Assembly (NCBI RefSeq): GCF_013760955.1
Contig: NZ_JACDUL010000004.1
Coordinates: 234,700-285,801, forward strand
DNA length: 51,102 nucleotides
DNA from: Methanococcus maripaludis
GTDB taxonomy: Archaea > AGJL01 > Methanococci > Methanococcales > Methanococcaceae
Direction: 5' to 3'
Under the pieces are notes generated by a model. It was not told where the DNA came from. It ran no database searches and saw only the letters and a list, made by a program, of their open reading frames with translations. This document shows, piece after piece, positions 7,877 through 48,793 of the stretch (positions are counted from its first letter, which is position 1; every line of letters starts with the position of its first letter). The translations under genes were made by a program, and so were the position numbers.

Positions 7877-7961
7877 GCGGAGATGGCCCAGCCTGGTACG
7901 GCGCGGGACTGCTAATCCCGTTACGCTCTGCGTAACCCGAGTTCAAATCTCGGTCTCCGCG
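7877..7961 (+). tRNA. tRNA-Ser (anticodon GCT)
   Basis: The acceptor stem GCGGAGA pairs with TCTCCGC, with discriminator G at 7961. The anticodon arm is GGGACTGCTAATCCC with anticodon GCT, which reads AGC/AGU serine codons. A long variable arm (GTTACGCTCTGCGTAAC) marks a class II tRNA, and the T arm is CCGAGTTCAAATCTCGG. The 3' CCA is not encoded. The gene is intact and doubles as the left attachment site of the integrated element: bases from 7909 onward are repeated exactly at 40688. Confidence 0.97.
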
Positions 7962-7964
7962 TTT
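7909..7964 (+). repeat. attL: 56-bp attachment repeat inside tRNA-Ser
   Basis: It runs from the anticodon loop (CTGCTAATCCCG) through the tRNA 3' end and three bases beyond, identical to 40688-40743. Crossover within this block rebuilds a complete tRNA gene at the left end. Confidence 0.93.
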
Positions 7965-8690: not shown

Positions 8691-8740
8691 ATATAATTCA
8701 AACCCAAAAATAGTAATTAAAAAAGAATGTGGGTTTAATC

Positions 8741-9010
8741 ATGGTTTTAAAATTACTTTCAAAGAAACATGTGGAGAATATTTTAAAACTCTTAAACGAG
8801 AGTGGGGAATTGTACGTTCAGCAGATAAACGACGAAGTTAAAATTAATAAAAGTAATTTAAGCCAGCTTTTACAAGAATTGCAGGATAATGATTTTGTTT
8901 CAAAAAGAATTGATGAGGATACGGCTAAGAATTTGCCGAAAAGTTATTTTAAATTGACGGAAAAAGGTAAAAGAGCTTTAAAAATTTATGAAATGGCTGA
9001 AGAATTATAA
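8741..9010 (+). CDS. winged-helix transcriptional regulator
   Basis: 89 residues from the ATG at 8741, which follows a GTGGG ribosome-binding-like stretch; a GTG at 8729 would add four residues but has no ribosome-binding site. The sequence is a single winged helix-turn-helix: helix pair ILKLLNESGELYVQQINDEV, recognition helix KSNLSQLLQELQD, and a wing ending in YFKLTEKGKRALK. It is clearly paralogous to the regulator at 19541 (shared LLSKK/LITKK start, GELY/GEMY, KAMPKAYYSLTE/KNLPKSYFKLTE). It probably binds the tandem repeats just upstream and controls itself and the 273-aa gene 15 bases downstream. Confidence 0.8.
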   Translation: MVLKLLSKKHVENILKLLNESGELYVQQINDEVKINKSNLSQLLQELQDNDFVSKRIDEDTAKNLPKSYFKLTEKGKRALKIYEMAEEL

Positions 9011-9926: not shown

Positions 9927-11261
9927 TTAAACCCCAATTTCAAATTCTAATCTAATTTTATCATGAAATATTTTGAGAATTTCTTCTTTTTCAAAACCGA
10001 TTTCTTCCATTATACAAAGTTCTAACAGTATTTCTAATTTTTTAGTTGCATGGTATATTTCAGAATGGTTTTCAGCCCGCAATGCTGCTTCATGTGATAA
10101 TCCATTTCTATTATGTGCTACAAATTCAGAAAAATCATGTATTGTATTGTTTCCCCATTGCGGCAAATATTCTTTTAACAATTCTCTTAAACGGTCTGCC
10201 AAACTGGGTTCATTACCTCTAAGCTTACCATCTAACCAGCGTTTATATCTGCTATCTTTCATGCTAAATACATCTTTGATTTCTTCTACTCTTGTATTAT
10301 ATTCATCAATTGGTAATCTTTCGTTAATTCTAGTCTGACGATGATATGATTCAAGAGCATAACATAAACTAATGAAATTGTATGCTAAAGGCATGTTAAA
10401 CTTTTTAGTTGAGAAATATAAGTTAAAAATAGGTTTTAATCGTTTTTCTATTTCAAACCATTTCGTAAATATTGATTCCATATTTTCATGGGAATTATTG
10501 AATAACATGTTATCGGAGTTTATTATCTTTTTAGGTGGTTTTTCGTGTAATTCTTCAAGATATATGTCAATATGGGCATCTTTTTCACCTTTTGGAATAC
10601 TACCTATGATTTCATGAGGATAAACACGACTACCTATCGAAAAAGATAAAAATTTTTCAAAAGACTTAATAATGTCTAAATATTTTGAAAAATTTACAAG
10701 ATCCCCATTTTCATGTTCAATAATTAATTTAAAATCTATATCTATTGAAAAAGAACAATTTTGAACAAATGATCCATCAAAATGCATGCCAATATAAAAT
10801 TTAAAATCTTCAAACGTTCCTAAATATAATGGATCAGGTACCTCGCAACTTGCACCATACGTATTTTCAGCACGTATATACTCCAAGTACCCCACAATAC
10901 AGGACCATTCCCGTAAATTGTAAAATTTTACCATGACTTTTTTAAAATTAAGTTCTTCGCGGTTAGGAAAATACTTCCCATAGTAAACTTTTGTTACATT
11001 AAATTTAGCTGTGTTATATCCTAAACCTCTATATTTTAGATTAAGGGGATAGCCTTCCACGGTTAAATATTTACCATCTTCAGTATGCCCTTTTATTAAA
11101 ATAGGATCTATGATCTGTCCTGGTTGCATTATATTGCTAAAATTCCCCTCAACTTCTATTAAATCCAGAATTTTTTCTGATGAAGTATAGTTTAAAGTCC
11201 CATAAACTTCTTTTTTATCACCAGGAATAATCCATTTGCCCCTACATGTTAGTTCTTTCAT
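9927..11261 (-). CDS. ApeA-like HEPN-domain protein (putative anti-phage nuclease)
   Basis: 444 residues. The N-terminus (CRGKWIIPGDKKEVYGTLNY) matches the start of the ApeA N-terminal domain, where a G-x-W-x-P motif leads into a beta-rich sensing region. The C-terminal third is helical and ends with a HEPN RNase signature, RNGLSH, giving Arg385 and His390 in an R-x4-H arrangement. ApeA proteins are single-gene anti-phage systems known in bacteria, and HEPN domains typically cut RNA. The start follows a GAGGGGAG ribosome-binding site. It is a monocistron, tail-to-tail with the regulator-effector pair. The family call rests on the terminal motifs and overall length; other HEPN-like proteins remain possible. 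Confidence 0.72.
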   Translation of the reverse strand: MKELTCRGKWIIPGDKKEVYGTLNYTSSEKILDLIEVEGNFSNIMQPGQIIDPILIKGHTEDGKYLTVEGYPLNLKYRGLGYNTAKFNVTKVYYGKYFPNREELNFKKVMVKFYNLREWSCIVGYLEYIRAENTYGASCEVPDPLYLGTFEDFKFYIGMHFDGSFVQNCSFSIDIDFKLIIEHENGDLVNFSKYLDIIKSFEKFLSFSIGSRVYPHEIIGSIPKGEKDAHIDIYLEELHEKPPKKIINSDNMLFNNSHENMESIFTKWFEIEKRLKPIFNLYFSTKKFNMPLAYNFISLCYALESYHRQTRINERLPIDEYNTRVEEIKDVFSMKDSRYKRWLDGKLRGNEPSLADRLRELLKEYLPQWGNNTIHDFSEFVAHNRNGLSHEAALRAENHSEIYHATKKLEILLELCIMEEIGFEKEEILKIFHDKIRLEFEIGV

Positions 11262-15804: not shown

Positions 15805-16773
15805 CTATAAAATCTTTTTAATTTGTTTTAACATGTTTTCCTGTCTTTCCTTGGAGTGGGAATAGTATAGCGTAGTTTCTAAGGATTTATGTCCTAAATA
15901 TTCTTTTACAATGTCAATTGGCATACCTTTATCCAGGAGATCAACTGCTCGACCATGTCTTAAAGAATGGATTACTACTCTTTTATTTTCTGGAATTCTC
16001 CCCTGGCTTTTTAGTTCTTTTACCGCATTTCTGAAAACATCGCTTACCCTGTTTCTCTGTAACGGCTCACCTTTATATGTTTGAAAAATCTTATCTTTAG
16101 GTTCTTTCCTTAGATTTGCTTTTAAACAGTAATTAACAAGTGTTAGTGTGTCATTTGAGCATGTAACAATCCTTTCTTCTTTTCCTTTGGTATTTCTTAA
16201 CCTAAATTCTCCTTTTTCTAAATCAGAATCACCATATTCCAGTTTCAAAGCTTCTGAGATTCTCGCTCCGGTATCCCATAAAAACCGGATAATCATTGCA
16301 TCTCTGATTTTTGTGGTGCTTCTTGTTTCCAGGATTTCAGTTAAAATCATGTTTAAAATTTCAGTGGATAATGAATCGTAGTGTTTTATTTCAAAGCTTG
16401 TGAATCTTTTTCTCTCTTCACTTTCATCTTTGAAGTCTTTGAAGTTTTCAAGTCTCATAAGCTTGTAAAACACTTTTAAATTATTGTAATACTTGTTTTG
16501 GGTATTTCTCGAAAGTTTCCTTTCTTTTTCAAGATAATTAAAGAATTTAATGAACTCTGCGTTTGTCATTTCTTCAGGATTTTTTTCAAGTCTGTTGAAA
16601 ATGAAATTCAAAAACACTTTTAACCGGTTTACATCGCCCTGAATCGTAGTTTTTTTAATTCCATCAAATTCCCTTTCTGCAATGAACTTGTCAACCCATT
16701 TTTTAGATTTTGAAGTTTCTTTTATCTCTTCTTTTTTTGGTGTGAATAGTATCATATTTTTTAGATTTTGCAT
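15805..16773 (-). CDS. tyrosine recombinase (integrase)
   Basis: 322 residues in the XerC/D-like layout. The N-terminal SAM-like core-binding domain spans about residues 20-110. The catalytic domain shows Arg171 (GARISE), a likely beta-hairpin Lys196, His269 and Arg272 (HSLRHG), His295 (LGHKS) and the nucleophile Tyr304 (TLYYSH). All six catalytic positions are present, so it should be active. It most likely recombines the 56-bp repeats at 7909 and 40688 to integrate and excise the element. Unlike many integrases it lies about 8 kb inside the element. The start has GGGGATTT upstream. Confidence 0.93.
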   Translation of the reverse strand: MQNLKNMILFTPKKEEIKETSKSKKWVDKFIAEREFDGIKKTTIQGDVNRLKVFLNFIFNRLEKNPEEMTNAEFIKFFNYLEKERKLSRNTQNKYYNNLKVFYKLMRLENFKDFKDESEERKRFTSFEIKHYDSLSTEILNMILTEILETRSTTKIRDAMIIRFLWDTGARISEALKLEYGDSDLEKGEFRLRNTKGKEERIVTCSNDTLTLVNYCLKANLRKEPKDKIFQTYKGEPLQRNRVSDVFRNAVKELKSQGRIPENKRVVIHSLRHGRAVDLLDKGMPIDIVKEYLGHKSLETTLYYSHSKERQENMLKQIKKIL

Positions 16774-19918: not shown

Positions 19919-21484
19919 CTATTCTATAAAGTTCATATCTTTAAGTTTTAACTCATGAAGTTCATAAAGATCTATTTTTTTAGGGATTAAATATTCATTC
20001 GAATATGAAGCTAACTTTAACATTACTCTATCGTTTTTTTTGATCTGTTCTTCGACACTATCTAAATTTATTATTTTAACCCTATCATGAATATAATATA
20101 AATCTCCAAGACGAATTTCTTTTTCAAATATGCTCACAGGAGATAGTTGTATCTTATACTCAATAGCTCCCGCTGTTTTTTGAGTATTTAATATATTCCT
20201 GGCTTCATGATTATCAACTTCCATCGTTACAAAAGGAATTTCTATATTTTCTTTAATTATACCATAGATATCAAAAATAGTTCGTAAGTCTGCTTCAGAA
20301 CGATATTCTGGAAGTATAAATGGTACATTAAACTCATGTTCAATCGTATAGAGTGCGTTTATTAATGGTTCATCGTTAATCTCAATCTTTTTATCAAAAT
20401 TAATTCTACCTTTAACGATTTCGTTGTTTATTCTCAAAATTAATTCATCATGGTTCATTAATTCTTTTAAAAATAACATACAGGTCATTAATTCAGATAC
20501 TTGTGCATTTTTTACATTTAATCTTAAGTTTAGTTTTTCATCATCGGGATGAATTATTTTTCCAGGTTTTGGTACATTAAGTAACATTTCTAATGCCCGA
20601 TTATTACTTTCAATTGTTATGTAATCTTCATGAATATCTTTAATTTGAAACAACATGTTTTCCAGTGCATAATCTGTAGCATATATTTCCAATCTAACAT
20701 TTAGTTTCGGATAACCCGGCCTTAAGATAACAGGATATTTTATTTTAGTATTTTCCTCTTCCAACATTTCCTTAAAAGTTTCAAAACTTTTAAATTCTTC
20801 TTCAGATATTTCGAGTGATTCATTTTTTAAGTACATATCGTCAATATATTTTTCAGGATCTATCGTGATATTCCGCATTTTTAAGACTTTAGATATTATT
20901 TTTACCGGATCTATCGTAAAAGCATGGTTTAATATGATGCCTTCATCACTTTCTTCGGCAATTTTATTTGCATGTTCAAATGCAAGTGTAATTTGTTTTT
21001 TTTTGGAACCAATAAGATATGGAATATATGTTTTAAACGCATCACTTATCGATTGGGGCATAAATTCCTTTATAGCATCTATCTTCTCAATCATGACTTT
21101 GTGCTGTTTCGAATTATCCTCAATTTTAGCTTCAATTCGTTCGATTCCTGCTAAAATTCTGGCATGGTCAGATTTTGCTTCATTCAAAAATTCTTTGAGT
21201 TCAGGATCTGTTTCGTTCTGATTTTCAATATAATCTAATATCTGTTTCAATTGGTCTCCTTTTTGGCTGTCAGAAGTTAGATCATCATAAATGTCCCATG
21301 ATGTAACAATAATCTTTCCTAAAGGTGGAATATCTGCAAGTTCGAGTAATCCATCAACAATTCCTGCTACAGGATGTTTTATTGTTTTCAAAATGAAACC
21401 AATTTTTTCCAACTTACTTTTTAATTCATCGTCTTTTAAAGTACTATTCTTAGATTTTCGAAAAAGTTTTCTAAATTTTCCCAT
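19919..21484 (-). CDS. 521-aa hypothetical cytoplasmic protein
   Basis: No family recognised. Residues 30-65 contain a moderately hydrophobic region (VAGIVDGLLELADIPPLGKI) that could insert into or touch membranes. Residues 80-150 are strongly helical and coiled-coil-like (GIERIEAKIEDNSKQHKVMIEKID). The remaining 350 residues look like repeated beta/alpha units, with two similar segments around LEMLLNVPKPGKIIHPDDEK and ARNILNTQKTAGAIEYKIQL. The ATG start lies next to a GGTGCC-type site. Its place between regulator-gene remnants suggests cargo, perhaps a defence effector, but nothing catalytic is visible. Confidence 0.6.
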   Translation of the reverse strand: MGKFRKLFRKSKNSTLKDDELKSKLEKIGFILKTIKHPVAGIVDGLLELADIPPLGKIIVTSWDIYDDLTSDSQKGDQLKQILDYIENQNETDPELKEFLNEAKSDHARILAGIERIEAKIEDNSKQHKVMIEKIDAIKEFMPQSISDAFKTYIPYLIGSKKKQITLAFEHANKIAEESDEGIILNHAFTIDPVKIISKVLKMRNITIDPEKYIDDMYLKNESLEISEEEFKSFETFKEMLEEENTKIKYPVILRPGYPKLNVRLEIYATDYALENMLFQIKDIHEDYITIESNNRALEMLLNVPKPGKIIHPDDEKLNLRLNVKNAQVSELMTCMLFLKELMNHDELILRINNEIVKGRINFDKKIEINDEPLINALYTIEHEFNVPFILPEYRSEADLRTIFDIYGIIKENIEIPFVTMEVDNHEARNILNTQKTAGAIEYKIQLSPVSIFEKEIRLGDLYYIHDRVKIINLDSVEEQIKKNDRVMLKLASYSNEYLIPKKIDLYELHELKLKDMNFIE

Positions 21485-22299: not shown

Positions 22300-23439
22300 G
22301 TGGGATATAATTTAACTAACTGTATTTTATCAGCTATCTTGGCCATACTAATTGTTATTTTCATATTAATTTCTCCAGGAATTGTTTTTGAAAAATTTGT
22401 TTTTTCAATATTCGTGGGTTTTGTGATTGCATTTTCATGCATAATATTATTTGTGAAAAAAACAAGCCCTTTTAATCCATTAAATAAAACCGATCTTAGA
22501 ACTTCATTTGCATCTATAATATGGCTTTCATTAGTTTTCTGTCTGATTACGCCTCTTTTTTTGGCAGAAGGGGCAGGTCTTGATTGGACGCACTCTTTCA
22601 TTTCTAAATTTTTAGAAACCATGAGTAGTATTGGAACATATATGGCTGCAATGTTTGCTGCAAGCGTTATACTTGGAATGGAAAAGCAGCAAAAAACCAT
22701 GGATAATACATTAAGCGAAATGGAAACACAACGAAAAATATCCATAAAACCCGAACTTTTTCCGGTAAAAACGACTCTTTATTTGGCAAATTTAAATGAT
22801 GAATTTCAAATATGGGTCGATACCCCTAAAAAAATTGATGAATATATATCCAAATATGGAGATTTAGTTAATAATAACCCCGATTTTAAGATTAATCGAT
22901 CTTTTTTAATAGATTATATATGCCCGCATATAGACGTGTATAATTTTGGATTGGGTACTGCAAAAGGTATTTCTTCAGGAATATCGTCCGATTTTAAATT
23001 ATTTCTTTCAAAAACATTTGATGATAGGGCTAATTATAATATAATTAATGAGGATAATGGATACAAAATTAAATTTAATAATGGAAAAGAAATTGACATT
23101 CCAAATATCAAGTTAATGTTGTTGGATAATGTACTTACTCCCCATTCAAAATTTTTTTCTGAACCCTTAAAAGTTGACTTTTGCCATTGGAGATCTTCCT
23201 TATACGGTGCTGTTATGGAATATTTCAACGAATCGGATAGTTTTTATGATGATGTTGAGTTGTTTCTATCGTATTTTTACCCCGACGGTACATCTGATGA
23301 AATAAAGTTTGAAATCACCATTAAATTCAACTTAAAAGTTAGCGATGCAGGAAACAAATACGCAGAAGTTAATATTGTGCCATATGTAATTAACCATGCC
23401 CATTGTAATAATTTCTTAAAATCAGAAAAAAATTGTTAG
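22300..23439 (+). CDS. membrane protein with large soluble C-terminal domain (379 aa)
   Basis: GTG start behind GGGGTGTAAGG. The first 125 residues contain about four hydrophobic helices (ILSAILAILIVIFILISPGI, FSIFVGFVIAFSCIILFV, IIWLSLVFCLITPLFLAEGA, MAAMFAASVILGM). A short coiled coil (EKQQKTMDNTLSEMETQRKI) follows, then a 240-residue beta-rich soluble domain. This helix-coil-soluble layout is common in phage exclusion and abortive-infection membrane proteins, but no specific family is recognised. It is expressed divergently from the PH-SHOCT gene. Confidence 0.65.
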   Translation: MGYNLTNCILSAILAILIVIFILISPGIVFEKFVFSIFVGFVIAFSCIILFVKKTSPFNPLNKTDLRTSFASIIWLSLVFCLITPLFLAEGAGLDWTHSFISKFLETMSSIGTYMAAMFAASVILGMEKQQKTMDNTLSEMETQRKISIKPELFPVKTTLYLANLNDEFQIWVDTPKKIDEYISKYGDLVNNNPDFKINRSFLIDYICPHIDVYNFGLGTAKGISSGISSDFKLFLSKTFDDRANYNIINEDNGYKIKFNNGKEIDIPNIKLMLLDNVLTPHSKFFSEPLKVDFCHWRSSLYGAVMEYFNESDSFYDDVELFLSYFYPDGTSDEIKFEITIKFNLKVSDAGNKYAEVNIVPYVINHAHCNNFLKSEKNC

Positions 23440-23561: not shown

Positions 23562-25130
23562 TTAATTGGATTTTATATTCATTTCAGAGAGAACTATATC
23601 TTCTATTTTCCGCCTTATTTCTCGCATATTATCCTCATGAATCAGATCTTTTAATTTAGTAATAATATTATCTTTATTAAAAGTTATTCCAAGCACATTT
23701 TCTAATTCTTCGATCAGTTCCACACTATATTTTTCGACATATCGGGATTTATCTTCTGCTTTCAAGGGATTAAAGAAATATTTCATATCAAATCTTGAAC
23801 GCAGTGCTTCAGGTATAACTGTACTATAATTATTTTTATCAAGATTGGAAGTAAAAATAATAATATATCCATTTAAGTCATGTTCAATGCCTGCTCGATC
23901 AGTGAATTTCCCATCTTCCAACAATTCATAGAAAAAATTAAATACTGTTTCATCTGCTTTTTCAAATTCATCAATAAGAATTACTTTGGACTCGGATACT
24001 TTAATTTTATTAATTAATTCACCCCCTCTTTCACTTCCCCTATATCCCAAAGGTGATCCAATTAAACTATTCAAAACACCTTCTGTTGAATAATTTCCAA
24101 AATTTAATTTAATCTGTTCGCAATTTGGATACATTTTTTGTGATATGATTCTTGCAAATTCTGTTTTTCCGACCCCGGATTTTCCACAAAGAAATATGGA
24201 TAAAATTTTTCTACGAGCAATTTTGTTTAAATATCTGAATTTTAATAAATTAAATCCAAAATCAGTTTTAAAATCTTCATGACCTTGTAAATTCTCATTT
24301 ACATGATTAATTATTGAATATGCCTCTTTTTCAATGGTTTCACAACTAATATCTAAAGACGATGTTAATACGCTATCCTCATCAAATCCATTAAATTTTT
24401 GAGATTTATCAAAATTAAATGGGAAAAATTCAGTTAAAACGTCAAATAAATCTTCCCTAATTAAATATTTCACGTTATTCTTTTTTGATAGTTTATAAAA
24501 TACCGATTCACATGAAAAAATTAGTTCTTTTCGGATTTTTAAAAGATCAATAAGTGATGTAAGATCAATATAATACTCCTCGTAATTACTCAGTTTATCA
24601 AAATCTATGTTGAATATTGATCCATTGGGGTCCTTAATTAGTTGTGTGAAATTGAATATATTATCAAAATTCTTAAATTTGGAAATGCCCTCCCGGTTGG
24701 GATAAGTGTAGACTGTATTAATATTGAAAAGTGTAGTTTTTAATTCTTCAACATCTGTTGTTTTTGTTTCATTGGTGGTTAAACATTCAAATATTTCGTC
24801 ATGTTCAAACAAAAAGGGATAAACCTTCAAAAAATTATTTTTCTCATTTGAATCAATAGTATATACAATTTCTGGAAAATTATCGTTCAATTCGAGAATG
24901 TATCTTTCTAAAAGTGATTTCCCATACTTATTACTATAAAATGTATCATAAAAAACATTTGTAATATCCACTGCATTATTTTGGAGTTCAAGATCTTCTA
25001 TATCCTCAATCATGGGGGCTTCCACAATTATTGAAGATAATGTAATGATTTTGTATTCATTAAGTTCTTTTTTCAGGGTTTCTAAACTATCGATGTCATA
25101 AACGTATAATTTATTCAATTGACTCACCAT
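23562..25130 (-). CDS. ClpB/HslU-type AAA+ ATPase
   Basis: 522 residues. The first 290 show no known domain. The AAA_2 core follows: Walker A GKSGVGKT (316-323), GSPLGYRG (358-365) corresponding to the GAPPGYVG segment of Clp/Hsp100 proteins, Walker B VILIDE (383-388), sensor-1 TSN (427-429) and an arginine finger in ALRSRFD (442-448). Only one AAA module is present and there is no ClpP-binding loop I can see. The ATG at 25130 lacks a ribosome-binding site; a TTG at 25118 sits five bases after GGTGA and may be the real start. The gene overlaps the membrane-protein gene upstream, so the two are probably made together and act as a pair. Confidence 0.78.
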   Translation of the reverse strand: MVSQLNKLYVYDIDSLETLKKELNEYKIITLSSIIVEAPMIEDIEDLELQNNAVDITNVFYDTFYSNKYGKSLLERYILELNDNFPEIVYTIDSNEKNNFLKVYPFLFEHDEIFECLTTNETKTTDVEELKTTLFNINTVYTYPNREGISKFKNFDNIFNFTQLIKDPNGSIFNIDFDKLSNYEEYYIDLTSLIDLLKIRKELIFSCESVFYKLSKKNNVKYLIREDLFDVLTEFFPFNFDKSQKFNGFDEDSVLTSSLDISCETIEKEAYSIINHVNENLQGHEDFKTDFGFNLLKFRYLNKIARRKILSIFLCGKSGVGKTEFARIISQKMYPNCEQIKLNFGNYSTEGVLNSLIGSPLGYRGSERGGELINKIKVSESKVILIDEFEKADETVFNFFYELLEDGKFTDRAGIEHDLNGYIIIFTSNLDKNNYSTVIPEALRSRFDMKYFFNPLKAEDKSRYVEKYSVELIEELENVLGITFNKDNIITKLKDLIHEDNMREIRRKIEDIVLSEMNIKSN

Positions 25131-26334
25131 CCTGAATTTTAAGTTCTTGAATTATAGCAATCAAATCGATTAAGTGATATTCGCCCTCAAGTTTAGTATA
25201 TTCAGGAAATTTCGTCTTTTGCACAGGTTCTGTTTTTGAACTATCTTTTAAGCCACAGTTATTTGACGTCCCAATTCGATCATCGTTGTTAGTGGACTTT
25301 GACAATAATTCAAAGAATTTTGATGAAATACTGTCCATTTCGGAGAAATTAACTTTTCCACGGTATATTCCTATTACACTAAGTTCGCCCATTTGTAAAT
25401 CATTATGCGAATAACTGTTTTCAAAATATTCTCTCGAATTATACGGGATCCTAATTAAATACTCTGTATCCTCATTATCGATATTAAATGTGTAATCAAT
25501 GGTAAAATCATCTAACATTCCAGTAATTACTTCTGAAATGTTGAATTCAAAGCCACTATCATTTTTAACCTGTTTTAGATTTCCATTTGCTAAAAAATTT
25601 AAAAACATAATCAAATTATCGGTATTTCGTTGAGATAATTCCACATTTTTAAATAATAATATCTCCCCTAAATTTTTACTTAAGGGCTGGTTTTTAAGTT
25701 TAGAATAGATTTCTCTGAGCATTATTGATTTAGTTGTTTTTACGTCAAAACTTTCATAAACACTCTTTTTACTACGGTTTTCATTTATTTGGTTTATAGT
25801 TGGTACACCTAGCTTATCTAGGTTTAAGGAAACATCCGATTTTGAAGTTTCCTCTTGACTGTGCTGTTTTTCTACGGTTTTCATTATTTTATTATCTAAC
25901 AGCATTGCAATTTCATGAACTTTTGATATGTTTATATAAAAAAGATTAAATAGCTCGTTATTTTCTACATAATCGTGCGATTCATCGCTTTTAACATTAT
26001 TTGTGGCAATTCTTAAAGTAATAAATGAAATAAGCGAAATTAATACTAAAATATGGCCTTGAAATGTGATCAAGTAGTCATTTATAACTTTTATCTGTGT
26101 CAATAGTGCCAACACTATTATTGAATAGATTACAACTATTGATAAATCATGTACTGACATATATTCCTTTTTAAATGTTTTTTGAAGTAGATAAACTATT
26201 AAAAATAAAATTGGGGGAAGCAATGCCCACCATATATTTAAAACTGCAAAATATCCTGAATGGTAAACCCCCAACGATATAAAACTTAGGACTAATGTTC
26301 CAAAGATGATGTCTGCTTTAAAATGTTCTTTCAC
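25111..26334 (-). CDS. membrane protein coupled to the ClpB-like ATPase (407 aa)
   Basis: GTG start after AGGGGATTAC. The first 110 residues hold four hydrophobic helices (IIFGTLVLSFISLGVYHSGY, LLPPILFLIVYLL, LSIVVIYSIIVLALL, HILVLISLISFITLRI). About 290 residues of soluble, acidic sequence follow. The 3' end overlaps the ATPase gene by up to 20 bases, indicating translational coupling. A membrane sensor paired with a Clp-type unfoldase is a plausible two-gene defence or stress system; this is inference from context. No family recognised. Confidence 0.7.
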   Translation of the reverse strand: MKEHFKADIIFGTLVLSFISLGVYHSGYFAVLNIWWALLPPILFLIVYLLQKTFKKEYMSVHDLSIVVIYSIIVLALLTQIKVINDYLITFQGHILVLISLISFITLRIATNNVKSDESHDYVENNELFNLFYINISKVHEIAMLLDNKIMKTVEKQHSQEETSKSDVSLNLDKLGVPTINQINENRSKKSVYESFDVKTTKSIMLREIYSKLKNQPLSKNLGEILLFKNVELSQRNTDNLIMFLNFLANGNLKQVKNDSGFEFNISEVITGMLDDFTIDYTFNIDNEDTEYLIRIPYNSREYFENSYSHNDLQMGELSVIGIYRGKVNFSEMDSISSKFFELLSKSTNNDDRIGTSNNCGLKDSSKTEPVQKTKFPEYTKLEGEYHLIDLIAIIQELKIQDGESIE

Positions 26335-26487: not shown

Positions 26488-26874
26488 TTGCTGGCACCAT
26501 TGGCTATGACCGCTGTGGGGGTATTAAGTGAAAAGCACTATGTACCAAGACCTGTATTCTTTTTAAATGTTATTGCGTTGAATATTTTTACATATCAAAC
26601 AGGCATACACAATTCCTTAGTGCAATTTTATTCATATATTGCAATTCCCATAGCAGTATTTTCAATAGTTTCGTACCGTAACAACGATAGTTTGTCTTCG
26701 CCGTTTTACAAAATATTCTCAGTTTATAGTTCTAAAATAGTCGGTACTTTAATTATCGGGCTTTATTTATATTATGGATTAAATTTACCGTTGCTTGTTG
26801 TAGTAATTCTCGATGCAATCATATTCGGAGTACTTTACAAAATACTGTCAAAAAAGAATAAGCGGAATAGATAA
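26488..26874 (+). CDS. small polytopic membrane protein (about 128 aa)
   Basis: Three or four hydrophobic segments (LLAPLAMTAVGVLS, PVFFLNVIALNIFTY, FYSYIAIPIAVFSIVSY, VGTLIIGLYLYY and LPLLVVVILDAIIFGVLY) end in a basic tail KILSKKNKRNR. The start is uncertain: TTG at 26488 is 20 bases from the GAGGGG ribosome-binding site, while an in-frame ATT at 26476 has ideal spacing. It is divergent from the Clp-associated membrane protein and shares its promoter region. Confidence 0.6.
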   Translation: MLAPLAMTAVGVLSEKHYVPRPVFFLNVIALNIFTYQTGIHNSLVQFYSYIAIPIAVFSIVSYRNNDSLSSPFYKIFSVYSSKIVGTLIIGLYLYYGLNLPLLVVVILDAIIFGVLYKILSKKNKRNR

Positions 26875-27800: not shown

Positions 27801-28352
27801 TTATCTTTTTTTCAAATAATTATAAAGTGTATATTTACTTATTCCAGTAGCTTTTAAAATCTGTTTTACTTCGTATTCTTTTGAATCATACATTTTTAAA
27901 GCTAATTCGACCTGGTTTATATCTGCTTTAGGTCTTCCACCCTGACGGCCTCTTGATCGAGCTGCTTTTAATCCTGATTTTACTCTTTCAGAAATTAAAT
28001 CTCTTTCAAATTCTGCCAATCCTGCAAAAATAGTAAAAAGTAGTTTTCCATGTGCTGATGAAGTGTCAAGCCATGATTCTTTTAAACATTTAACAGAAAC
28101 TCCCATTTCTTCTAATCTAGTCATTATTTCGATTAAATCTTTGGTACTTCTTGAAAGTCTTGTTAATTCACTAACAATCACCATGTCTCCAGGACGTAAA
28201 ACTTCAAACATTCTATCAAATTCAGGTCTGTTCTTTTTAGTTCCTGAGATTTTCTCTAAAAATATCTTTTCACAACCTGCTTTCTTCAACTCATCAATCT
28301 GTCTTTCTAATTTCTGATCTTTCGTTGACACTCTTGCATAGCCTATTATCAT
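27801..28352 (-). CDS. serine recombinase (resolvase/invertase family)
   Basis: 183 residues with all family landmarks: catalytic Ser9 in YARVSTKDQ, LSRSTKDLIEI, the E-helix FAGLAEFERDLISER, and a C-terminal helix-turn-helix (VKQILKATGISKYTLYNYLKKR) after the GRPK hinge. Length matches small resolvases and invertases rather than large serine integrases or IS607-type TnpA. It could resolve multimers, invert a segment or maintain the element. ATG after CGTGATAAC. It lies at the border between the accessory zone and the structural operon. Confidence 0.92.
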   Translation of the reverse strand: MIIGYARVSTKDQKLERQIDELKKAGCEKIFLEKISGTKKNRPEFDRMFEVLRPGDMVIVSELTRLSRSTKDLIEIMTRLEEMGVSVKCLKESWLDTSSAHGKLLFTIFAGLAEFERDLISERVKSGLKAARSRGRQGGRPKADINQVELALKMYDSKEYEVKQILKATGISKYTLYNYLKKR

Positions 28353-40687: not shown

Positions 40688-40743
40688 CTGCTAATCCCGT
40701 TACGCTCTGCGTAACCCGAGTTCAAATCTCGGTCTCCGCGTTT
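40688..40743 (+). repeat. attR: 56-bp copy of the tRNA-Ser 3' end
   Basis: Identical to 7909-7964, from the anticodon loop through the discriminator base and three following bases. The acceptor and D-arm half is absent, so it is not a functional tRNA gene. It marks the element's right end. Confidence 0.93.
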
Positions 40744-41577: not shown

Positions 41578-42346
41578 ATGCTCACCCTGTGTTTTTTAAA
41601 ATTGAATTCAGTTGCAAGAAAGTTTAACACAAGGCGTGTCTATATGTATCAAACAAAATTTGACATCTTCTTACCTGTATACATTGAAAATAATTAATTT
41701 ATAAAGTTAACGTTGTTTTATCTTTAAACTATTAAAAACTGTTTTCAAAACACACGGTATCCAATCAAATTTGGGGGAAAATCAATATATCTTTACTCCA
41801 TTTTCGGATATTCGATTAATTAATAGATTTTAATTTCTAATTTTTAAATAAATTAATATCAAACAGTTGATCCAACAAAATACCTAATGTTGGGTATTCT
41901 TTGCCACTTGATTGGGAAGTTGAGGTAACTAACGATATTTAATCTTTTTTTAAAATTTTCCATTTGAAATGAGTTAATAAACATTATTTCCGAAAAATAA
42001 CTGTTTTTTAAAATAATATCGTGTTTTAATTCTTTATTTTAAAAACAGACGGTTTATTTTAGTAATAAAATCAAAGTAGAAAATAAGAACATATTGTTGT
42101 AATTATAATTACATGATTTACTCCATGATTTTTTTTAAAGGGTAATTTTACGTAATAACGGTTTTTAACGAAAAACTCTGCTATCAAAGTATCCAAAATA
42201 ATAATTTTGGTTTAAAAATATTAAAAACTAATAAAAAATTATATATAATTTTATAAAGTAATACAATTTGAGATAAAAGTGTTACATAAATAACCTTTTA
42301 AATTCACTTAAACACTGTCCAGCATTAGATAACAAAGTGATAACTT
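41578..42346. other. 770-base AT-rich intergenic region upstream of the transporter cluster
   Basis: No gene found. 41833-41860 matches 48872-48899 at 27 of 28 bases. An AATAAAAAATTATATATAATTTT block around 42230-42252, about 105 bases before the permease start, matches one at the same distance before the TrmO-like gene. It probably holds the cluster's promoter. Confidence 0.5.
41833..41860 (+). repeat. 28-bp leader repeat, copy 1
   Basis: ATTTCTAATTTTTAAATAAA plus TTAATATC; differs from 48872-48899 at one base. The two copies flank the acquired transporter cluster. Confidence 0.65.
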
Positions 42347-43426
42347 ATGACCGAAATTGCCAGTATAAAAAAGATTCTGAAAGCCCTTGGCTATGAAGAC
42401 GTTGCAGGGTTTTCAGAATACAAAAAAATTCTAATCCTGGTTGTAATTTCTGGGCTTCTTTTTGCATCTGCACTCACTGCAGTAGCTATGGGGGCCTATG
42501 AAATCCCACTCCACACTGTATACACTACAATCTTAACACATATTACACTTGGAGATGTATCAACCATTGGAAAACTTCATAATACTATTATCTGGGACAT
42601 TCGTGTTCCAAGAGTACTGCTTACGATATTTGTAGGTGGAGCACTTGCCATTGCGGGTGCTGTTTTTCAGGGAGTATTCAGAAATCCACTCGTTGAACCA
42701 TATATCCTTGGTGTATCTTCGGGAGCGGCCTTTGGTGCTGCCATGGGAATTGTCTTTCCAACAATATTTTTCTCGATTCAGCTTTCCGCATTTGCATTTG
42801 GATCACTTGCAGTTGCAATGACGTATACGCTGGCCCGTGTTCGTGGGGAGACCCCAATTGTTACATTAATCCTGGCGGGTGTAATCATAGGATCTATCTT
42901 CTCGGCACTTGTATCTTTGTTGAAATATGTTTCAGATGATACTGCCTTAAGGGAGATTGTATTCTGGCTTATGGGCGGATTCTATTATGCAACATGGAAT
43001 GATGTATGGATGATAGCCCCCCTCGTCACTGTAGGATTTTTTATCTTGTGGGCAATGGGCTGGAAACTTAACATCTTGTCAATGGGGGATGATGAAGCCA
43101 GAACTCTTGGAGTGAACCCCGAAAAATATAAATTCATAGTGGTATCTATTGCCACTGCAATTACTGCTTTTGCAGTGTCTCTTGTTGGAATTATTGCTTG
43201 GGTTGGCTTGATGATGCCTCATGCTTCAAGGATGATTCTCGGACCCGACAACAGGTATGTAATCCCTGCATCGATGATGATGGGTGGAATATACATGATC
43301 CTATGCGACACACTGGCAAGAACAATTACAAGCTCTGAAATTCCCGTTGGGATTATTGCATCGATTCTTGGAGCTCCCTATCTCTGTTACTTGCTGAGAC
43401 ACAAGGGGAAAGTAATATTCGGGTGA
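42347..43426 (+). CDS. FecCD/BtuC-type ABC transporter permease
   Basis: 359 residues with the typical ten-helix profile and family motifs: IWDIRVPRVLLTIFVGGALA, GAVFQGVFRNPLVEPYILGV (FRNPL-x-EP-x-LG) and GIIAWVGLMMPHASRMILGP. These permeases form the channel of importers for iron-siderophore complexes, haem and cobalamin. The ATPase gene starts seven bases after the stop, so they form one operon. Composition is visibly richer in G and C than the flanking Methanococcus genes, which suggests transfer from another archaeon. The substrate is not decided; the neighbouring methyltransferases are unusual. Confidence 0.93.
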   Translation: MTEIASIKKILKALGYEDVAGFSEYKKILILVVISGLLFASALTAVAMGAYEIPLHTVYTTILTHITLGDVSTIGKLHNTIIWDIRVPRVLLTIFVGGALAIAGAVFQGVFRNPLVEPYILGVSSGAAFGAAMGIVFPTIFFSIQLSAFAFGSLAVAMTYTLARVRGETPIVTLILAGVIIGSIFSALVSLLKYVSDDTALREIVFWLMGGFYYATWNDVWMIAPLVTVGFFILWAMGWKLNILSMGDDEARTLGVNPEKYKFIVVSIATAITAFAVSLVGIIAWVGLMMPHASRMILGPDNRYVIPASMMMGGIYMILCDTLARTITSSEIPVGIIASILGAPYLCYLLRHKGKVIFG

Positions 43427-43432
43427 TTGATC

Positions 43433-44275
43433 ATGCTTCATGTAAAAGATATTCATTTCAATTACGGTGATTTCCCCGTATTATCGGGAATTTCATTTTC
43501 TGTAAACGAAGGAGAACTGTGCGGACTATTCGGGCCTAACGGATGTGGAAAAACAACCCTGTTCAAGTGTTGCCTTAAATTCCTGAAATCTGACCGGGGA
43601 TCTGTCCACATGGCTGGAAAAGATACCTCAAAAAGATCTATCGAAGAGCTTGCAAAAGTTGTCTCCTATGTGCCACAAGAGCACAAACCTCCATTTCCAT
43701 ATCTCGTAAGAGAAGTAGTTTTGATGGGGAGAACCCCTCATCTTGGAGGTATTTTTGGAGTTAAGCGAAGAGATAAAGAGATTGCAATTGATGCGCTGGA
43801 ACAGCTTGAAATAGGGGATCTTGCGGACAGGCCATACAACCAGTTATCTGGGGGACAGCGGCAGATGGTGCTGATGGCAAGGGCAATTGCTCAAGATACG
43901 CCTATGATGTTTCTCGACGAGCCCACATCTGCTCTTGATTTCCAGAACCAGATGAAGATTTGGGAGACTATGAAAGACATTGCAGCAGAAGGAAAGACGA
44001 TCCTTGCCTGCAGTCACGATCCCAACCATGTGGCATGGTTCTGTGACAGGGTGATAGTGGTATCAAAAGACGGTATTGTCGCTGATGGTCCGCCCGATGT
44101 TACGATCAATGAAGAGGTATTGGATATGATTTATTCCGATACATGCTCGGTCAGAAGATCAGGAGATGTTCGGGTCGTAATGCCCAGAAGTATTGCAGGA
44201 GAGCCTGGGGCAAGGTCGTATCCTGCCACTGAAGATTCTTACAGCCAATATGAAAATATAGAAATAAAAGACTAA
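43433..44275 (+). CDS. ABC transporter ATPase (FecE/BtuD type)
   Basis: I chose the ATG at 43433, five bases after GGGTGAT; the TTG upstream has poorer spacing. 280 residues with Walker A GPNGCGKTT, Q-loop VPQE, signature LSGGQRQ, Walker B MMFLDEPTSALD and the H-switch CSHDPNH. The C-terminal 40 residues (RSGDVRVVMPRSIAGEPGAR) are an extension beyond the core. It powers the permease encoded upstream. The stop overlaps the start of the first methyltransferase frame. Confidence 0.94.
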   Translation: MLHVKDIHFNYGDFPVLSGISFSVNEGELCGLFGPNGCGKTTLFKCCLKFLKSDRGSVHMAGKDTSKRSIEELAKVVSYVPQEHKPPFPYLVREVVLMGRTPHLGGIFGVKRRDKEIAIDALEQLEIGDLADRPYNQLSGGQRQMVLMARAIAQDTPMMFLDEPTSALDFQNQMKIWETMKDIAAEGKTILACSHDPNHVAWFCDRVIVVSKDGIVADGPPDVTINEEVLDMIYSDTCSVRRSGDVRVVMPRSIAGEPGARSYPATEDSYSQYENIEIKD

Positions 44276-44290
44276 ATGGGGGACAAATTA

Positions 44291-45130
44291 ATGAACTACA
44301 ATTCTATCGACTGGAATGAAGTATGGAAACAGCAATATGAAAAAAGTATTGAATTAAAAGGAAAAGGGGATTGTGCAACAGTATGGGATTCCAAAAAGAA
44401 AGCTCAGGAATTCCTTGAAAGGTCAAATAAAAATCCTGGACGTATACAAGAAATCATTGAACTCTTTAAGCCAGGGAAACATTCCACCATTCTTGATGTG
44501 GGTGCAGGTCCCGGAACGCTTGCCGTGCCTCTGGCCGGACTGGCAGCACATGTGACGGCAGTAGAGCCCGCCAACGGAATGGCTGAAGTAATGGGGGAGT
44601 ATGCAGCTCAGGAAGGAATTTCCAATCTCGACATTGTCCCAAAAAAGTGGGAAGACCTTGATCCAAAAACAGACCTTAAGGATTCATATGATATCGTATT
44701 TGCCTCCCATTCACTTGGAATGCCCGATATTAAAGAATCCATTGAAAAGATGATCGCCGTTGCATCCGGGAAAATTTACCTATTCTGGTTCGGAGGAACC
44801 CCTGCATGGGAGCAGAGGATGATAGACCTATGGCCTGACCTTCACGGAAAGGAGTATTCATGCGGACCAAAGGCAGACGTCATCTTCAATCTTTTGTATT
44901 CTATGGGGATTTACCCAAATGTCGAATCGAGGAATTTCCCTAATCATTTTGAATATCCTGACTATAATGCCGCCTTCCAGGGATTAAAAGAGCAATATGG
45001 GATATCGACACCGAAACAGGAGTCAGTCCTTAAAGACTACCTGGATAACATGTTGGTTAATGAAAACGGACACATGGTACTCCCAGGAAAAAGTACAGGG
45101 ATTCGGCTATGGTGGGAGGTGGACAAATGA
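44291..45130 (+). CDS. class I SAM-dependent methyltransferase 1
   Basis: I chose the ATG at 44291 (MNYNSIDWNEVWKQQYEKS), which has GGGGGAC before it and aligns with the start of its paralogue; an earlier ATG at 44276 overlaps the ATPase stop. 279 residues. SAM-binding motif I is ILDVGAGPGTLAVPLAG, with the acidic end of strand 2 in TAVEPANGMAEVM. Related proteins are often annotated type-11 methyltransferases, substrate unknown. Located between transporter genes and translationally coupled to the binding protein (ATGA), it probably modifies the imported ligand or a matching internal metabolite. Confidence 0.88.
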   Translation: MNYNSIDWNEVWKQQYEKSIELKGKGDCATVWDSKKKAQEFLERSNKNPGRIQEIIELFKPGKHSTILDVGAGPGTLAVPLAGLAAHVTAVEPANGMAEVMGEYAAQEGISNLDIVPKKWEDLDPKTDLKDSYDIVFASHSLGMPDIKESIEKMIAVASGKIYLFWFGGTPAWEQRMIDLWPDLHGKEYSCGPKADVIFNLLYSMGIYPNVESRNFPNHFEYPDYNAAFQGLKEQYGISTPKQESVLKDYLDNMLVNENGHMVLPGKSTGIRLWWEVDK

Positions 45131-46368
45131 AAATAAAGGCTAAGTTATTCAGTCAGGCACTGATTCTTATTCTTATATCCCTGATCGTCATCTTTGCAGG
45201 GTGTGTCTCTGAAGATACATCTGGAAAAGAACAAAAATCAGGCGTTGCAGGGTCAGATTATCGGACTGTCATCGATTCCCGTGGAGTTGCAGTTGAAATT
45301 CCGTCGGACGTCAAAAGAGTTGCTACAGTCTCTGATGGCCTGATCGAAGGGACAATGTACGCTCTCGGAGTTGAAGGTACTATTGTTGGCATAGGTTCAT
45401 CGGCTTTACAGAGTGAATGGACATATTCCTACCCAACAGATGACGGAGGCGTCGTGAACGGCACTGGGGGGCACCATGTAATAAAGGAGCTAATTGAAAA
45501 TATTGAAGACATCCCGCTTTTTGCACAATATGGATCTCCACTTAATTATGAAACGCTGTCTTCTTTAGAGCCCGATGTTGTTATAGTCAGACTTGGAACC
45601 AGTGCCTTCTGGGAAGATGCCGAAGCTGCTCAAAAGACGATTGATAGGATTGAGTCTTTGGGTATGCCAGTTGTTGTTCTGTACAGCCCCAATTGCTATG
45701 ATGATGCATCTCTTACCAGGATCTCTGACGAAATCGAAATAATCGGGGACGTATTCGATAAGAAAGAAGATGCAGCAGAAATTGCAGCATATCTCGAATC
45801 TCAAATTGCACTTGTGGAGGAACGTACTTCAGACATTCCCGAAGATGAAAAACCCTCAGTGCTTATGTTTGGACTTTCTCCTACTCACCGGGCACAGGGG
45901 GGTGCTGGAGTCGCCCAGGGTCTCGGGACTGCAGAATCCTATATGATAGAGACTGTTGTTAATGCCAAAAACGCCTATCAGGTGGATATAGGTACATTCC
46001 AAATCGTCAATACAGAGCAGGTGCTTGCCCTTGATCCCGATGTAATTGTCCTTTGTACTGCATGGGGATACCATCCACCTGGGGAACTGACAGAGGCTAC
46101 TTATTATGAATCACTCAGGGAGCTCAAGGCCGTCAAGAACGGGCGTATAATGTCCCTTCCATGGACCCCATGCAACTGTGCAAAGAGAATTGAGTACCCG
46201 ATAGATGTGATGGTAATAGCAAAAGCTGCATACCCTGACAGATTTGAAGACATCGAACTTGACGAATGGCTTATAGAATTCTACATGAATACATATGGTG
46301 TCGACCAGACAACAGCGGAAAAGCTGCGGACAGCACAATGGATGGATTGGTGTGTTGGAGAGCAGTAA
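45127..46368 (+). CDS. lipoprotein substrate-binding protein 1 (PBP2/BtuF-FecB-like)
   Basis: ATG at 45127 after GGGAGGTGGACAA, overlapping the methyltransferase stop as ATGA. A lipobox (IFAGC, Cys26) follows the signal sequence, so the protein is tethered outside the membrane. The binding fold opens with YRTVIDSRGVAVEIPSDVKR and has LEPDVVIV and LDPDVIVLCT repeats; this matches the periplasmic-binding family of iron-complex and cobalamin importers. 413 residues, at the long end for the family. It feeds the permease upstream. Confidence 0.9.
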   Translation: MKIKAKLFSQALILILISLIVIFAGCVSEDTSGKEQKSGVAGSDYRTVIDSRGVAVEIPSDVKRVATVSDGLIEGTMYALGVEGTIVGIGSSALQSEWTYSYPTDDGGVVNGTGGHHVIKELIENIEDIPLFAQYGSPLNYETLSSLEPDVVIVRLGTSAFWEDAEAAQKTIDRIESLGMPVVVLYSPNCYDDASLTRISDEIEIIGDVFDKKEDAAEIAAYLESQIALVEERTSDIPEDEKPSVLMFGLSPTHRAQGGAGVAQGLGTAESYMIETVVNAKNAYQVDIGTFQIVNTEQVLALDPDVIVLCTAWGYHPPGELTEATYYESLRELKAVKNGRIMSLPWTPCNCAKRIEYPIDVMVIAKAAYPDRFEDIELDEWLIEFYMNTYGVDQTTAEKLRTAQWMDWCVGEQ

Positions 46369-46392
46369 TCCAGATTTCCAAAGGTGATTTTA

Positions 46393-47235
46393 ATGAAAAA
46401 CTATTACGGATTTGACTGGAACGAAATATGGAATGAGATAAACGAAGCAAATATCAAATGCGGAGCTTTTGGGGAGTGTGCCTCAATATGGGAGAGCAAA
46501 GAGGCGGCCAGAGCTTTTCTTAACAACTCTTTTGCCAATCCCGAACGTAAACAATTTATTATTGACAGTCTTCCCTTATCGCCGGATTCCAGGGTACTTG
46601 ACATTGGTTCAGGTCCGGGAACAATCGCGGTGCCCGTCGCCGGCCGTGTGAAACATGTAACTGCAGTAGAACCATCTCACGGCATGGCAGATGTCATGGA
46701 GGAATATGCTGCAGAAAACGGAGTTTCCAATCTTGATATTGTCAGAAAACGTTGGGAGGAACTTGATCCTTCCTCTGACCTCCAGGGACCTTACGATATT
46801 GTTTTTGCATCATATTCTCTTGGAATGCAGGATTTAAGGGATACCATCAGGATGATGGAGGAAGTTTCCTCAAAATGGGTTTACATTTTCTGGATCTCCG
46901 GAATGCCGTCATGGGAAAAGGGATTTTTGGAACTCTGGCCACAAATCCATGGAAAAGAGTTCTGCCTCACTCCTCAGGCAGACATTATCTATAATGTACT
47001 TTACTCAATGGGGATTTACCCAAACATAAGGGTAGCTGAAATTGAGAGCAACAATCATTTCCCTGATCTCAATTCAGCGGTTTCAAAGTTAAGCTCTGTA
47101 TACAACATTGAAACCAGCGAACAGGAGGAAATTCTCCGGAATTACCTCAGCACAGTTCTTGCCCGAGATGAAAAAGGGTTTGCAGTCAAAGAAAGCAACA
47201 TGGGCACGGCCCTCTGGTGGGAGATGGGAAAGTGA
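46393..47235 (+). CDS. class I SAM-dependent methyltransferase 2, paralogue of 1
   Basis: ATG at 46393, four bases after AAGGTGAT (a GTG in that site is not the start). 280 residues, MKNYYGFDWNEIWNEINEA, with motif I VLDIGSGPGTIAVPVAG and AVEPSHGMADVMEEYAAENG. It aligns with methyltransferase 1 over the full length, including VLYSMGIYPN and the C-terminal LWWE. It arose by tandem duplication of a methyltransferase-binding-protein unit. Confidence 0.88.
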   Translation: MKNYYGFDWNEIWNEINEANIKCGAFGECASIWESKEAARAFLNNSFANPERKQFIIDSLPLSPDSRVLDIGSGPGTIAVPVAGRVKHVTAVEPSHGMADVMEEYAAENGVSNLDIVRKRWEELDPSSDLQGPYDIVFASYSLGMQDLRDTIRMMEEVSSKWVYIFWISGMPSWEKGFLELWPQIHGKEFCLTPQADIIYNVLYSMGIYPNIRVAEIESNNHFPDLNSAVSKLSSVYNIETSEQEEILRNYLSTVLARDEKGFAVKESNMGTALWWEMGK

Positions 47236-47280
47236 AAATCAATTTATAGTACAGATCTGATGAAGATGAAGATTGTAATA

Positions 47281-47574
47281 TGTGGAAAAAGGGGCAACAG
47301 AAAGAGTACAAGCAGCTCAAAAGGGAGGTTATCTTTAATGTTCCCTATTCCCTGAGAATTTACTCAATGTTGAGACAAGTTACATGAACACGTACGGAGG
47401 TTTACGGGCTTTCAGGCAACATTGACGAGTTTAATGAACAATACAAAATTGAAACCCCTGAACAGGAAAAAATACTCTCGGATTATCTAAAGTTCAGTTT
47501 GAAGGAAGATAATGGGGAGTATATACTTAACGAAAAGTCAAACACTATAAAAATCTGGTGGAAGGTAGAATAAT
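47281..47574 (+). pseudogene. decayed third methyltransferase (C-terminal fragments)
   Basis: The segment carries pieces of the same family in two frames. First WKKGQQKEYKQLKREVIFNV and PYSLRIYSM, which align with the KEYSCGPKADVIFN ... LYSMGIYPN region. After a stop and frameshift come EFNEQYKIETPEQEKILSDY and IKIWWKVE, aligning with the C-terminus. The N-terminal SAM-binding half is gone. Its end overlaps the ATG of binding protein 2 just as methyltransferase 1 overlaps binding protein 1, showing the original order of the duplicated unit. Confidence 0.8.
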
Positions 47575-48793
47575 GAAAAGAAAAAATACCGGGATTACAC
47601 TGATCCTTAGTCTGTTCATGTCCATATTGCTCATACTATGCGCAGGATGTATATCAGACAACAGTGGAAGTTTACAGACAACAGACAATTCAGAACAGTC
47701 AACAGGCTATAAGACAGTCGTTGACATGAGGGGGGTGGAGGTTACCATCCCTGAAGATCCACAAAGGGTAGTTGCAATGAGTCGCTCCCTCATCGACACT
47801 ACAATGTACATATTCGGAAAGAGCGACAAGATTGTTGGAGCAAGTATCTCAACAAAACCAACAGCGGCCGGAACCTACGTTTACAACGGAAATGATTACA
47901 CAGTCAACAACTGGATAGGCCAGCTCCTCTATCCTGAAATCAAGAACCTGACGAATGTCGGAGGATTTGGAGGGCCATACGGATCACCGAATGCAGAAAC
48001 TGTTGCCCAACTTGAACCGGACCTGTTTATTCTCAGGGATATGGGTGCAAGTTCTGAAGACACAAATAAATTCATCGAACAATTAGAGTCAATGGGAATA
48101 CCGGTTGTAGTACTTCAGTATCCGTCATGCTACGACAATCCTAGTATAGATACCATTTATGAAGAAATAGCTCTTCTCGGAGAAGTCTTCGGAAACGAGG
48201 ATGAAGCCGATCAGATCATAGACACAATGAAATCAAGAGTTGATTTCATTTCTGAAAGAACTGCTGGAATACCTGAGGATGAGAAAGTAGATGTCCTCTA
48301 CTTCGGAGCTCCTACGTGGGCAAAAGAGAGATACGGCGGTGCAGGATATGCATTCGGAAGTGGAACAATAGAAATTGCCTTCATGGAAGATGTAATAAAT
48401 GCAAACAATGTCTACACAGATAGTGGCACTAATCTGGTTTCAGCCGAACAGATGCTTGCACTTGACCCGGATAAGATCATCCTGTGTACATATAGCGGAT
48501 ACCACCCTCCAAGACAGCTGTATGATGAGGAGATGTATGGGGGCATACAGGAGATGACCGCTATCCAATCCGGTGAAGTATACTCTCTTTCCTCAACACC
48601 ATGCAAATCAGAGAGGCTTGAACTTCCTATTAATCTAATGATTGCTGCAAAGGCTATCTATCCTGATAGATTCGAAGATATTGATCTTGAATCATGGACA
48701 CGTGAATATATTATAGAATTATATGATACCGACGAAGAGGCCACTGATGAAATAATGGATGCACTTATGTTCGAATATCTTGGAATCTCCTGA
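47573..48793 (+). CDS. lipoprotein substrate-binding protein 2 (PBP2/BtuF-FecB-like)
   Basis: ATG at 47573 after GGTGGAAGGTAGA. A signal sequence with lipobox (LCAGC, Cys26) is followed by YKTVVDMRGVEVTIPEDPQR, LEPDLFILRD and LDPDKIILCTYSGYHPP. It is a paralogue of binding protein 1, with the same PDRFEDI-x-LE ending block. Two binding proteins sharing one permease-ATPase pair suggest two related ligands or a ligand plus its modified form. Stop at 48793 ends the cluster. Confidence 0.9.
   Translation: MKRKNTGITLILSLFMSILLILCAGCISDNSGSLQTTDNSEQSTGYKTVVDMRGVEVTIPEDPQRVVAMSRSLIDTTMYIFGKSDKIVGASISTKPTAAGTYVYNGNDYTVNNWIGQLLYPEIKNLTNVGGFGGPYGSPNAETVAQLEPDLFILRDMGASSEDTNKFIEQLESMGIPVVVLQYPSCYDNPSIDTIYEEIALLGEVFGNEDEADQIIDTMKSRVDFISERTAGIPEDEKVDVLYFGAPTWAKERYGGAGYAFGSGTIEIAFMEDVINANNVYTDSGTNLVSAEQMLALDPDKIILCTYSGYHPPRQLYDEEMYGGIQEMTAIQSGEVYSLSSTPCKSERLELPINLMIAAKAIYPDRFEDIDLESWTREYIIELYDTDEEATDEIMDALMFEYLGIS

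Follow-up and report, generated by a model that had tools for sequence, protein, structure and literature searches.

A 51,102-nucleotide stretch of a Methanococcus maripaludis genome (contig NZ_JACDUL010000004.1; hereafter the window) contains two overlapping genes, one for an Hsp100-type AAA+ ATPase and one for a membrane protein. A preliminary description had proposed them as a new two-gene defence system, stating that no named system has such a pair. The locus thus raises three questions, namely whether the two genes form a unit, whether such a unit serves defence, and whether it is new.

The overlapping genes and their products

Both genes lie on the reverse strand. Gene A (25111-26334 (-)) starts with GTG and encodes a DolA-like membrane protein of 407 residues, recognised by its PADLOC match to PDC-M37A. 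Gene B (23562-25130 (-)) encodes a DolB-like, Hsp100-type AAA+ ATPase of 522 residues, recognised in both PADLOC (PDC-M37B) and Pfam. The stop of A and the start of B overlap by 20 bp (25111-25130 (-)) and GGTGAG lies immediately ahead of the B start codon, inside gene A; together, these features suggest that the two genes are translationally coupled. At the local GC content of 28%, the chance of such long open frames is about 6e-16 for A and 3e-20 for B. Both frames were recovered at exactly the positions first described, and relatives of both were found elsewhere. Two further predicted membrane proteins, without clear family match, flank the pair on the opposite strand (22300-23439 (+) and 26488-26874 (+)).

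Protein A had been described as a four-helix membrane protein with a large soluble domain, and this is also what we find. Residues 1-127 (25954-26334 (-)) hold four predicted membrane helices, with hydrophobic segments at residues 5-23, 29-47, 66-84 and 88-106 in a hydropathy scan and helices at 2-22, 31-54, 61-79 and 88-112 in an AlphaFold2 model of low confidence. The following approximately 280 residues (128-407; 25114-25953 (-)) form a soluble domain which, by alignment and hhalign, is a homologue of DolA/DUF6414. The positive charges between helices 2 and 3 (QKTFKK) would suit a cytoplasmic location of this domain. The same scan revealed no membrane segments in six bacterial PDC-M37A and eight DolA proteins, such that the four segments are found in the window protein alone. 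Protein A has no match in Pfam or in phage records, and no meaningful one in the PDB. It should be noted that the AlphaFold models, built on three-sequence alignments, are poor (mean pLDDT of 47 and 38), so that fold comparison of A and of the N-domains of B was not feasible.

In B, residues 267-522 (23565-24332 (-)) comprise the AAA+ module and the C-terminal part, as assigned by Pfam AAA_2 and a PDB profile match. The Pfam domain itself covers residues 307-437 (3.6e-24), in agreement with the earlier description of an ATPase carrying some 290 residues ahead of its AAA module. The Walker A motif is GKSGVGKT (24162-24185 (-)), the Walker B motif is ILIDE (23967-23981 (-)), and the pore-loop-1 motif GYRG (24036-24047 (-)) aligns with GYVG of ClpC, which is also the best PDB match of the M37B family profile (1.8e-41). 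The Foldseek matches listed for the B model are all Clp-type proteins, which, in so poor a model, says little beyond the AAA module. Ahead of this module, residues 136-258 (24357-24725 (-)) match the N-terminal domain that is single in the short bacterial forms (hhalign probability of 72-81% over 61-67 columns, the cuts differing slightly). B exceeds those forms by about 130 N-terminal residues, and residues 1-133 (24732-25130 (-)) are probably an extra copy of the same domain, as their match to the short-form N-domains reaches an hhalign probability of 25.5% and a score of 26.3, whereas no score above 20.3 was obtained from 200 shuffles and the reversed control had a probability of 0.13%. As the two copies present no direct similarity to one another (z -0.2; 0.2%), duplication rests on each of them matching the short-form domain, and a tandem duplication is likely, although not certain.

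Identity of the pair

The statement that no named system has this pair did not survive comparison with PADLOC-DB 2.0.0, which lists both proteins as PDC-M37. B matches the PDC-M37B model at E 4e-138 (459.7 bits) and A the PDC-M37A model at E 1.9e-89 (298.6 bits). These long models are matched nearly end to end, with B residues 6-518 on positions 3-512 of 518 and A residues 39-401 on positions 3-372 of 374, and the A-then-B adjacency required for PDC-M37 is found in the window. The identity of the pair as PDC-M37, and hence as an already catalogued candidate defence system, is thus well supported. Gene order is the same as in the bacterial members, whereas the four predicted membrane helices of A and the added N-domain copy of B are absent from the six bacterial members examined. 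The length of the PADLOC models (374 and 518 positions) suggests that other long forms are known to their authors; among the relatives that we found, there was no other long form of A or B.

A text search of the literature for PDC-M37 returned PMC11811056 alone. In its available portions, PDC systems are given as unpublished candidates, and within the Bacillus cereus group the PDC-M37 and Dodola calls coincide on the same proteins. The literature searched, which was available in part, contained no report of a PDC-M37 member being tested against a virus.

Distribution

Co-occurrence of the two families was considered next to their identity. In 7/7 bacterial loci, a relative of A lies directly upstream of a full-length relative of B, in the same order as in the window; A was thus present wherever full-length B relatives were found. 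The seven loci are from two MAGs (one Clostridium, one Bacilli), genome G133, and four plasmids (one each of Halobacillus and Listeria seeligeri, and two near-identical ones of Priestia megaterium). Among 72,556 plasmid records, A was detected in four (H1-H4), and these same four gave the best B matches. In a sample of 398 genomes, A was detected in two, G061 and G133, and B matches above 370 bits were found solely in these two, the next match (138 bits) being a longer Clp-like frame; G061 is the centre of this sample and hence does not count independently. A second sample comprised 392 genomes; here, the centre (G062) alone contained a full A match, and G795 gave a weak one (2.7e-5) limited to positions 13-74 and with three internal stops. 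A search among 346 related genomes, the window genome included, found A in the window genome only. A was chosen for these prevalence counts because the PDLC04605 model also detects ClpA, ClpB and ClpC, with matches in 387 of the 398 genomes.

Several loci should be considered separately. L005 and L006 lack A, their sole matches being long ClpB-like ATPases similar to the AAA part; L007-L009 cover the same places as L003 and L004; and L043, which is nearly a copy of L042 but has a shortened A and a shortened B, was left out of the alignments. Scans of Viral_contigs with B, alignments A1 and A2, the packaging-type ATPase and a DolA yielded no relative. The pair is rare, patchy and always paired; this distribution suggests horizontal spread, the source being probably Bacillota.

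Relation to Dodola

Dodola is an experimentally active two-gene system that consists of DolA, with DUF6414, and DolB, a ClpB-like ATPase. The alternative that survives best is that the pair is a true Dodola, working exactly as the bacterial Dodola does. Both proteins are homologous to those of Dodola, the adjacent dolA and dolB genes have the same order and may overlap, the short forms are of similar length, and in the B. cereus group the PADLOC and DefenseFinder calls coincide, as given in the accessible part of PMC11811056. By hhalign, the M37A family (with 30 N-terminal residues of the L003 protein left out) aligns to DolA over 236 columns with a probability of 87.7%, compared with 0.5% for the reversed control, and the M37B family aligns to DolB over 248 columns with a probability of 99.85% (E 1.2e-30). 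For A, the link needs the family profile, as the window protein alone yields only 1.6% against DolA. The DolA model matches two of the five bacterial M37A proteins scanned (6e-6 and 2e-4), and neither this model (at E up to 1) nor Pfam DUF6414 matches the window A. The DolB model matches the window B at 9.7e-32, in residues 264-516 only, i.e., the AAA part.

For comparison, one Dodola was taken from G156, which alone among 299 genomes had a DolA match and in which a DolA of 283 residues (DUF6414, 4e-45) and a DolB of 377 residues are encoded by genes overlapping by 17 bp. Seven more were taken from the 17 plasmid records with a DolA match; the Lme DolB, a split gene in its record, was left out of the DolB sets. 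In a tree of AAA modules, M37B (7 sequences), DolB (7) and Clp (18 of the 28 loci L011-L038) each fall on one side of a branch with 100/99 support, which separates the clade of B from that of DolB. Both M37B and DolB possess the Walker A and Walker B motifs, sensor 1 and, near the C-terminus, an N-x-R (N-Y-R in one DolB). In contrast, GSPxGY[RIV], which aligns with the ClpC pore loop GSPPGYVG, is kept in 7/7 M37B, while six residues at exactly this site are missing in 7/7 DolB. The N-domains of M37B and DolB present no detectable similarity (0.22%), and their targets or triggers may thus differ. Moreover, the membrane anchor, which is lacking in 8/8 DolA, is found only in the window A. Given these differences, we consider it unlikely that the pair is a Dodola in the strict sense; the PDC-M37 proteins appear to be relatives of Dodola rather than members of it.

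This kinship bears on function. In the available text of PMC12322248, Dodola is active against phages, its activity is broad, its mechanism is listed as unknown, and a chromosomal Dodola leads to growth delay; by analogy, such a delay would suit a costly or harmful activity. The part of PMC11514479 available to us reports minimal impact of Dodola-type systems on the phages tested. Our literature search for DUF6414 found no paper, and neither Dodola nor Methanococc- occurs in the main text, as accessible, of PMC12988326 on archaeal defence. Likewise, neither the pore-loop difference nor the archaeal membrane form was found in the literature searched, parts of which were available.

An integrated plasmid and its cargo slot

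The repeat that had been described as bordering the pair instead bounds a whole element. A 56-bp copy of the 3' part of a tRNA-Ser, the only exact direct repeat of at least 22 bp in the window, forms the two att sites, one inside the tRNA-Ser itself (7909-7964 (+)) and the other at the opposite end of the element (40688-40743 (+)). The resulting element of 32,835 bp encodes a tyrosine-type integrase (15805-16773 (-); PHROG integrase, 4.7e-39) and a serine recombinase that adjoins the cargo slot (27801-28352 (-); Pfam Resolvase, 9e-47). The accessible part of PMC6972569 lists MMC7V2 of M. maripaludis C7 (1,436,513-1,469,347, 32,835 bp, att of 56, tRNA-Ser) in the pT26-2 family. Length, att size and target are identical to those of our element, these being the only features by which the two were compared. 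Integration into tRNA-Ser or tRNA-Leu of Methanococcales with att of similar length, as in the table of the same source (as far as available), is likewise what is seen here. A reading of the element as a provirus was dropped, as its size and att match to MMC7V2 point to the pT26-2 plasmids.

Related elements were traced through the packaging/transfer-type ATPase, the integrase, the recombinase and a few neighbours, the ATPase being found in 8/36 genomes of the phylum. A second related element is present in the window genome itself (L056; G000:C2:91201-92550), where the ATPase is 88% identical and the cargo comprises a type II methyltransferase and an HNH protein. Six of the seven related elements encode relatives (35-45% identity) of a 93-residue protein (8729-9010 (+)). 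Outside the element, positions 42000-49000 have a GC content of 44-45%, compared with about 27-39% elsewhere, and contain, by eye, genes for a transporter, substrate-binding proteins and two related methyltransferases; this region was possibly acquired.

In four of the seven related elements (L056-L059), the serine recombinase is kept at 61-81% identity. When 20 cargo proteins of these four were scanned with PADLOC, eight matched below 1e-9, four matched only weakly and eight had no match (raw counts). The eight are LmuB (3e-20), PDC-S02 (8e-23), PDC-S19 (2e-127), PDC-M68A (7e-66), PDC-M68B (2e-187), HEC-06/Orf5 (9e-148), a type II methyltransferase (3e-48) and an HNH protein matching Cas9 models (2.5e-10). 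The slot beside the serine recombinase thus appears to be variable, often holding defence-type genes that differ from one element to another. The pair had also been described as surrounded by other cargo, and it does lie among further cargo genes of the element. An ApeA-like HEPN protein (9927-11261 (-); PDC-S58, 6.9e-62; Cas13-ApeA, 2.9e-22) is a second defence-type gene in the element. A 521-residue protein (19919-21484 (-)) has no Pfam match and a weak HEC-01A match (1e-4); a 40% identical relative adjoins the LmuB-type gene of a sister element (L057:15440-17038 (+)), and this protein is possibly recurrent cargo.

Such a location also invites the explanation that the pair serves the plasmid itself, be it in its maintenance, its copy control, its conjugation or its attachment to the membrane; B would then be a motor that remodels plasmid or transfer proteins. 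In favour of this, the pair resides on an integrated plasmid, four of its bacterial relatives are on plasmids and A is membrane-anchored. Against this, neither A nor B was found on the cargo side of any of the seven related elements, so that such elements do without the pair; the relatives occur on unrelated replicons and MAG contigs, and the slot holds defence-type genes in four sister elements. We therefore judge a service to the plasmid quite improbable.

Relation to Hsp100 proteins

B could also belong to a protein-quality or stress system, as an archaeal disaggregase that resembles ClpB and has an adaptor in the membrane. Its AAA module is nearest to those of ClpC and ClpB in the PDB, and the Hsp100 hallmarks, i.e., an AAA_2 module, intact ATPase motifs (Walker A and B, sensor 1 and arginine finger) and an aromatic GYxG pore loop, are all present in B as in ClpC and ClpB. 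However, those proteins possess two AAA modules, while B has one, their N-domains differ from those of B, and B, which has a fixed partner gene, lacks residues opposite ClpC 667-692. B also falls below the NCBIfam equivalog cut-offs for ClpA, ClpB and ClpV (87 bits vs. 1232 for ClpB). The partner, moreover, is of DolA type, and the pair is cargo of a mobile element. Whether the pair belongs to a known stress system was also considered across the order: at E 1e-15, 35 other Methanococcales genomes gave no Hsp100-type match, which makes a general stress role unlikely. Taken with the other differences, this leaves the disaggregase explanation very improbable. That the two genes are functionless, decayed passengers, as their extra domains and long branch (1.96) might imply, is hardly credible, as both frames are intact and the ATPase motifs and gene overlap are preserved.

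Proposed mode of action

Returning to the defence reading, the pair is indeed a two-gene unit, as originally proposed, although not a new one, being already catalogued. Defence is the best reading given the PADLOC candidate match, the kinship to Dodola and the defence-type genes held by the cargo slot in sister elements, and the pair, which is real and conserved, probably has a role in defence. In our explanation, the pair is a PDC-M37 defence candidate of a lineage sister to Dodola, and it travels as cargo on a pT26-2-type plasmid in a Methanococcus tRNA-Ser. We hold this explanation as a whole, together with the mode of action outlined below, with slightly better than even confidence.

How such a system would act can be proposed from its domains. 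M37B has no counterpart to ClpC residues 667-692, a stretch skipped between the two parts of the PDB alignment and which we take to be the region of the ClpP-binding loop. Given this gap and the kept pore loop, it is plausible that M37B can thread a polypeptide and work without ClpP. It should be considered, however, that the putative loss of the ClpP loop is deduced from one alignment gap, and that a kept pore loop makes threading possible, not that it happens. Most likely, the pair would thus act in defence as an unfoldase that is independent of ClpP, has a DUF6414-like partner and is anchored in the membrane. In such a scheme, A and B would be co-produced and would assemble into a complex at the cytoplasmic side of the membrane, where A would hold a hexameric ring of B, either keeping it in place and idle or presenting it with substrate. 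Infection would free or activate B, which would then pull on, thread and unfold its target, be it a viral protein or A itself, and such unfolding would block the infection or harm the infected cell.

A further-reaching proposal is that PDC-M37 is a branch mechanistically separate from Dodola. It would be an Hsp100 motor that works by threading and, in methanogens, is tethered to the membrane by its partner, so that infection would trigger protein extraction or opening there. We offer this tentatively and consider it rather doubtful.

Implications

This analysis adds the kinship of both proteins to Dodola, the difference in the pore loop, the archaeal form with its membrane anchor, and a variable defence slot next to a serine recombinase in methanogen plasmids. 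PDC-M37 serves as a natural comparison for Dodola, as it consists of the same two parts but keeps the pore loop and, here, adds a membrane anchor. The contrast between the two therefore bears on whether the threading of proteins and the membrane are needed for defence of this kind. If the proposed separation of the branches is true, the defence machine of PDC-M37 would be of Hsp100 type and bound to the membrane, and threading would have been lost in Dodola, as a derived relative.
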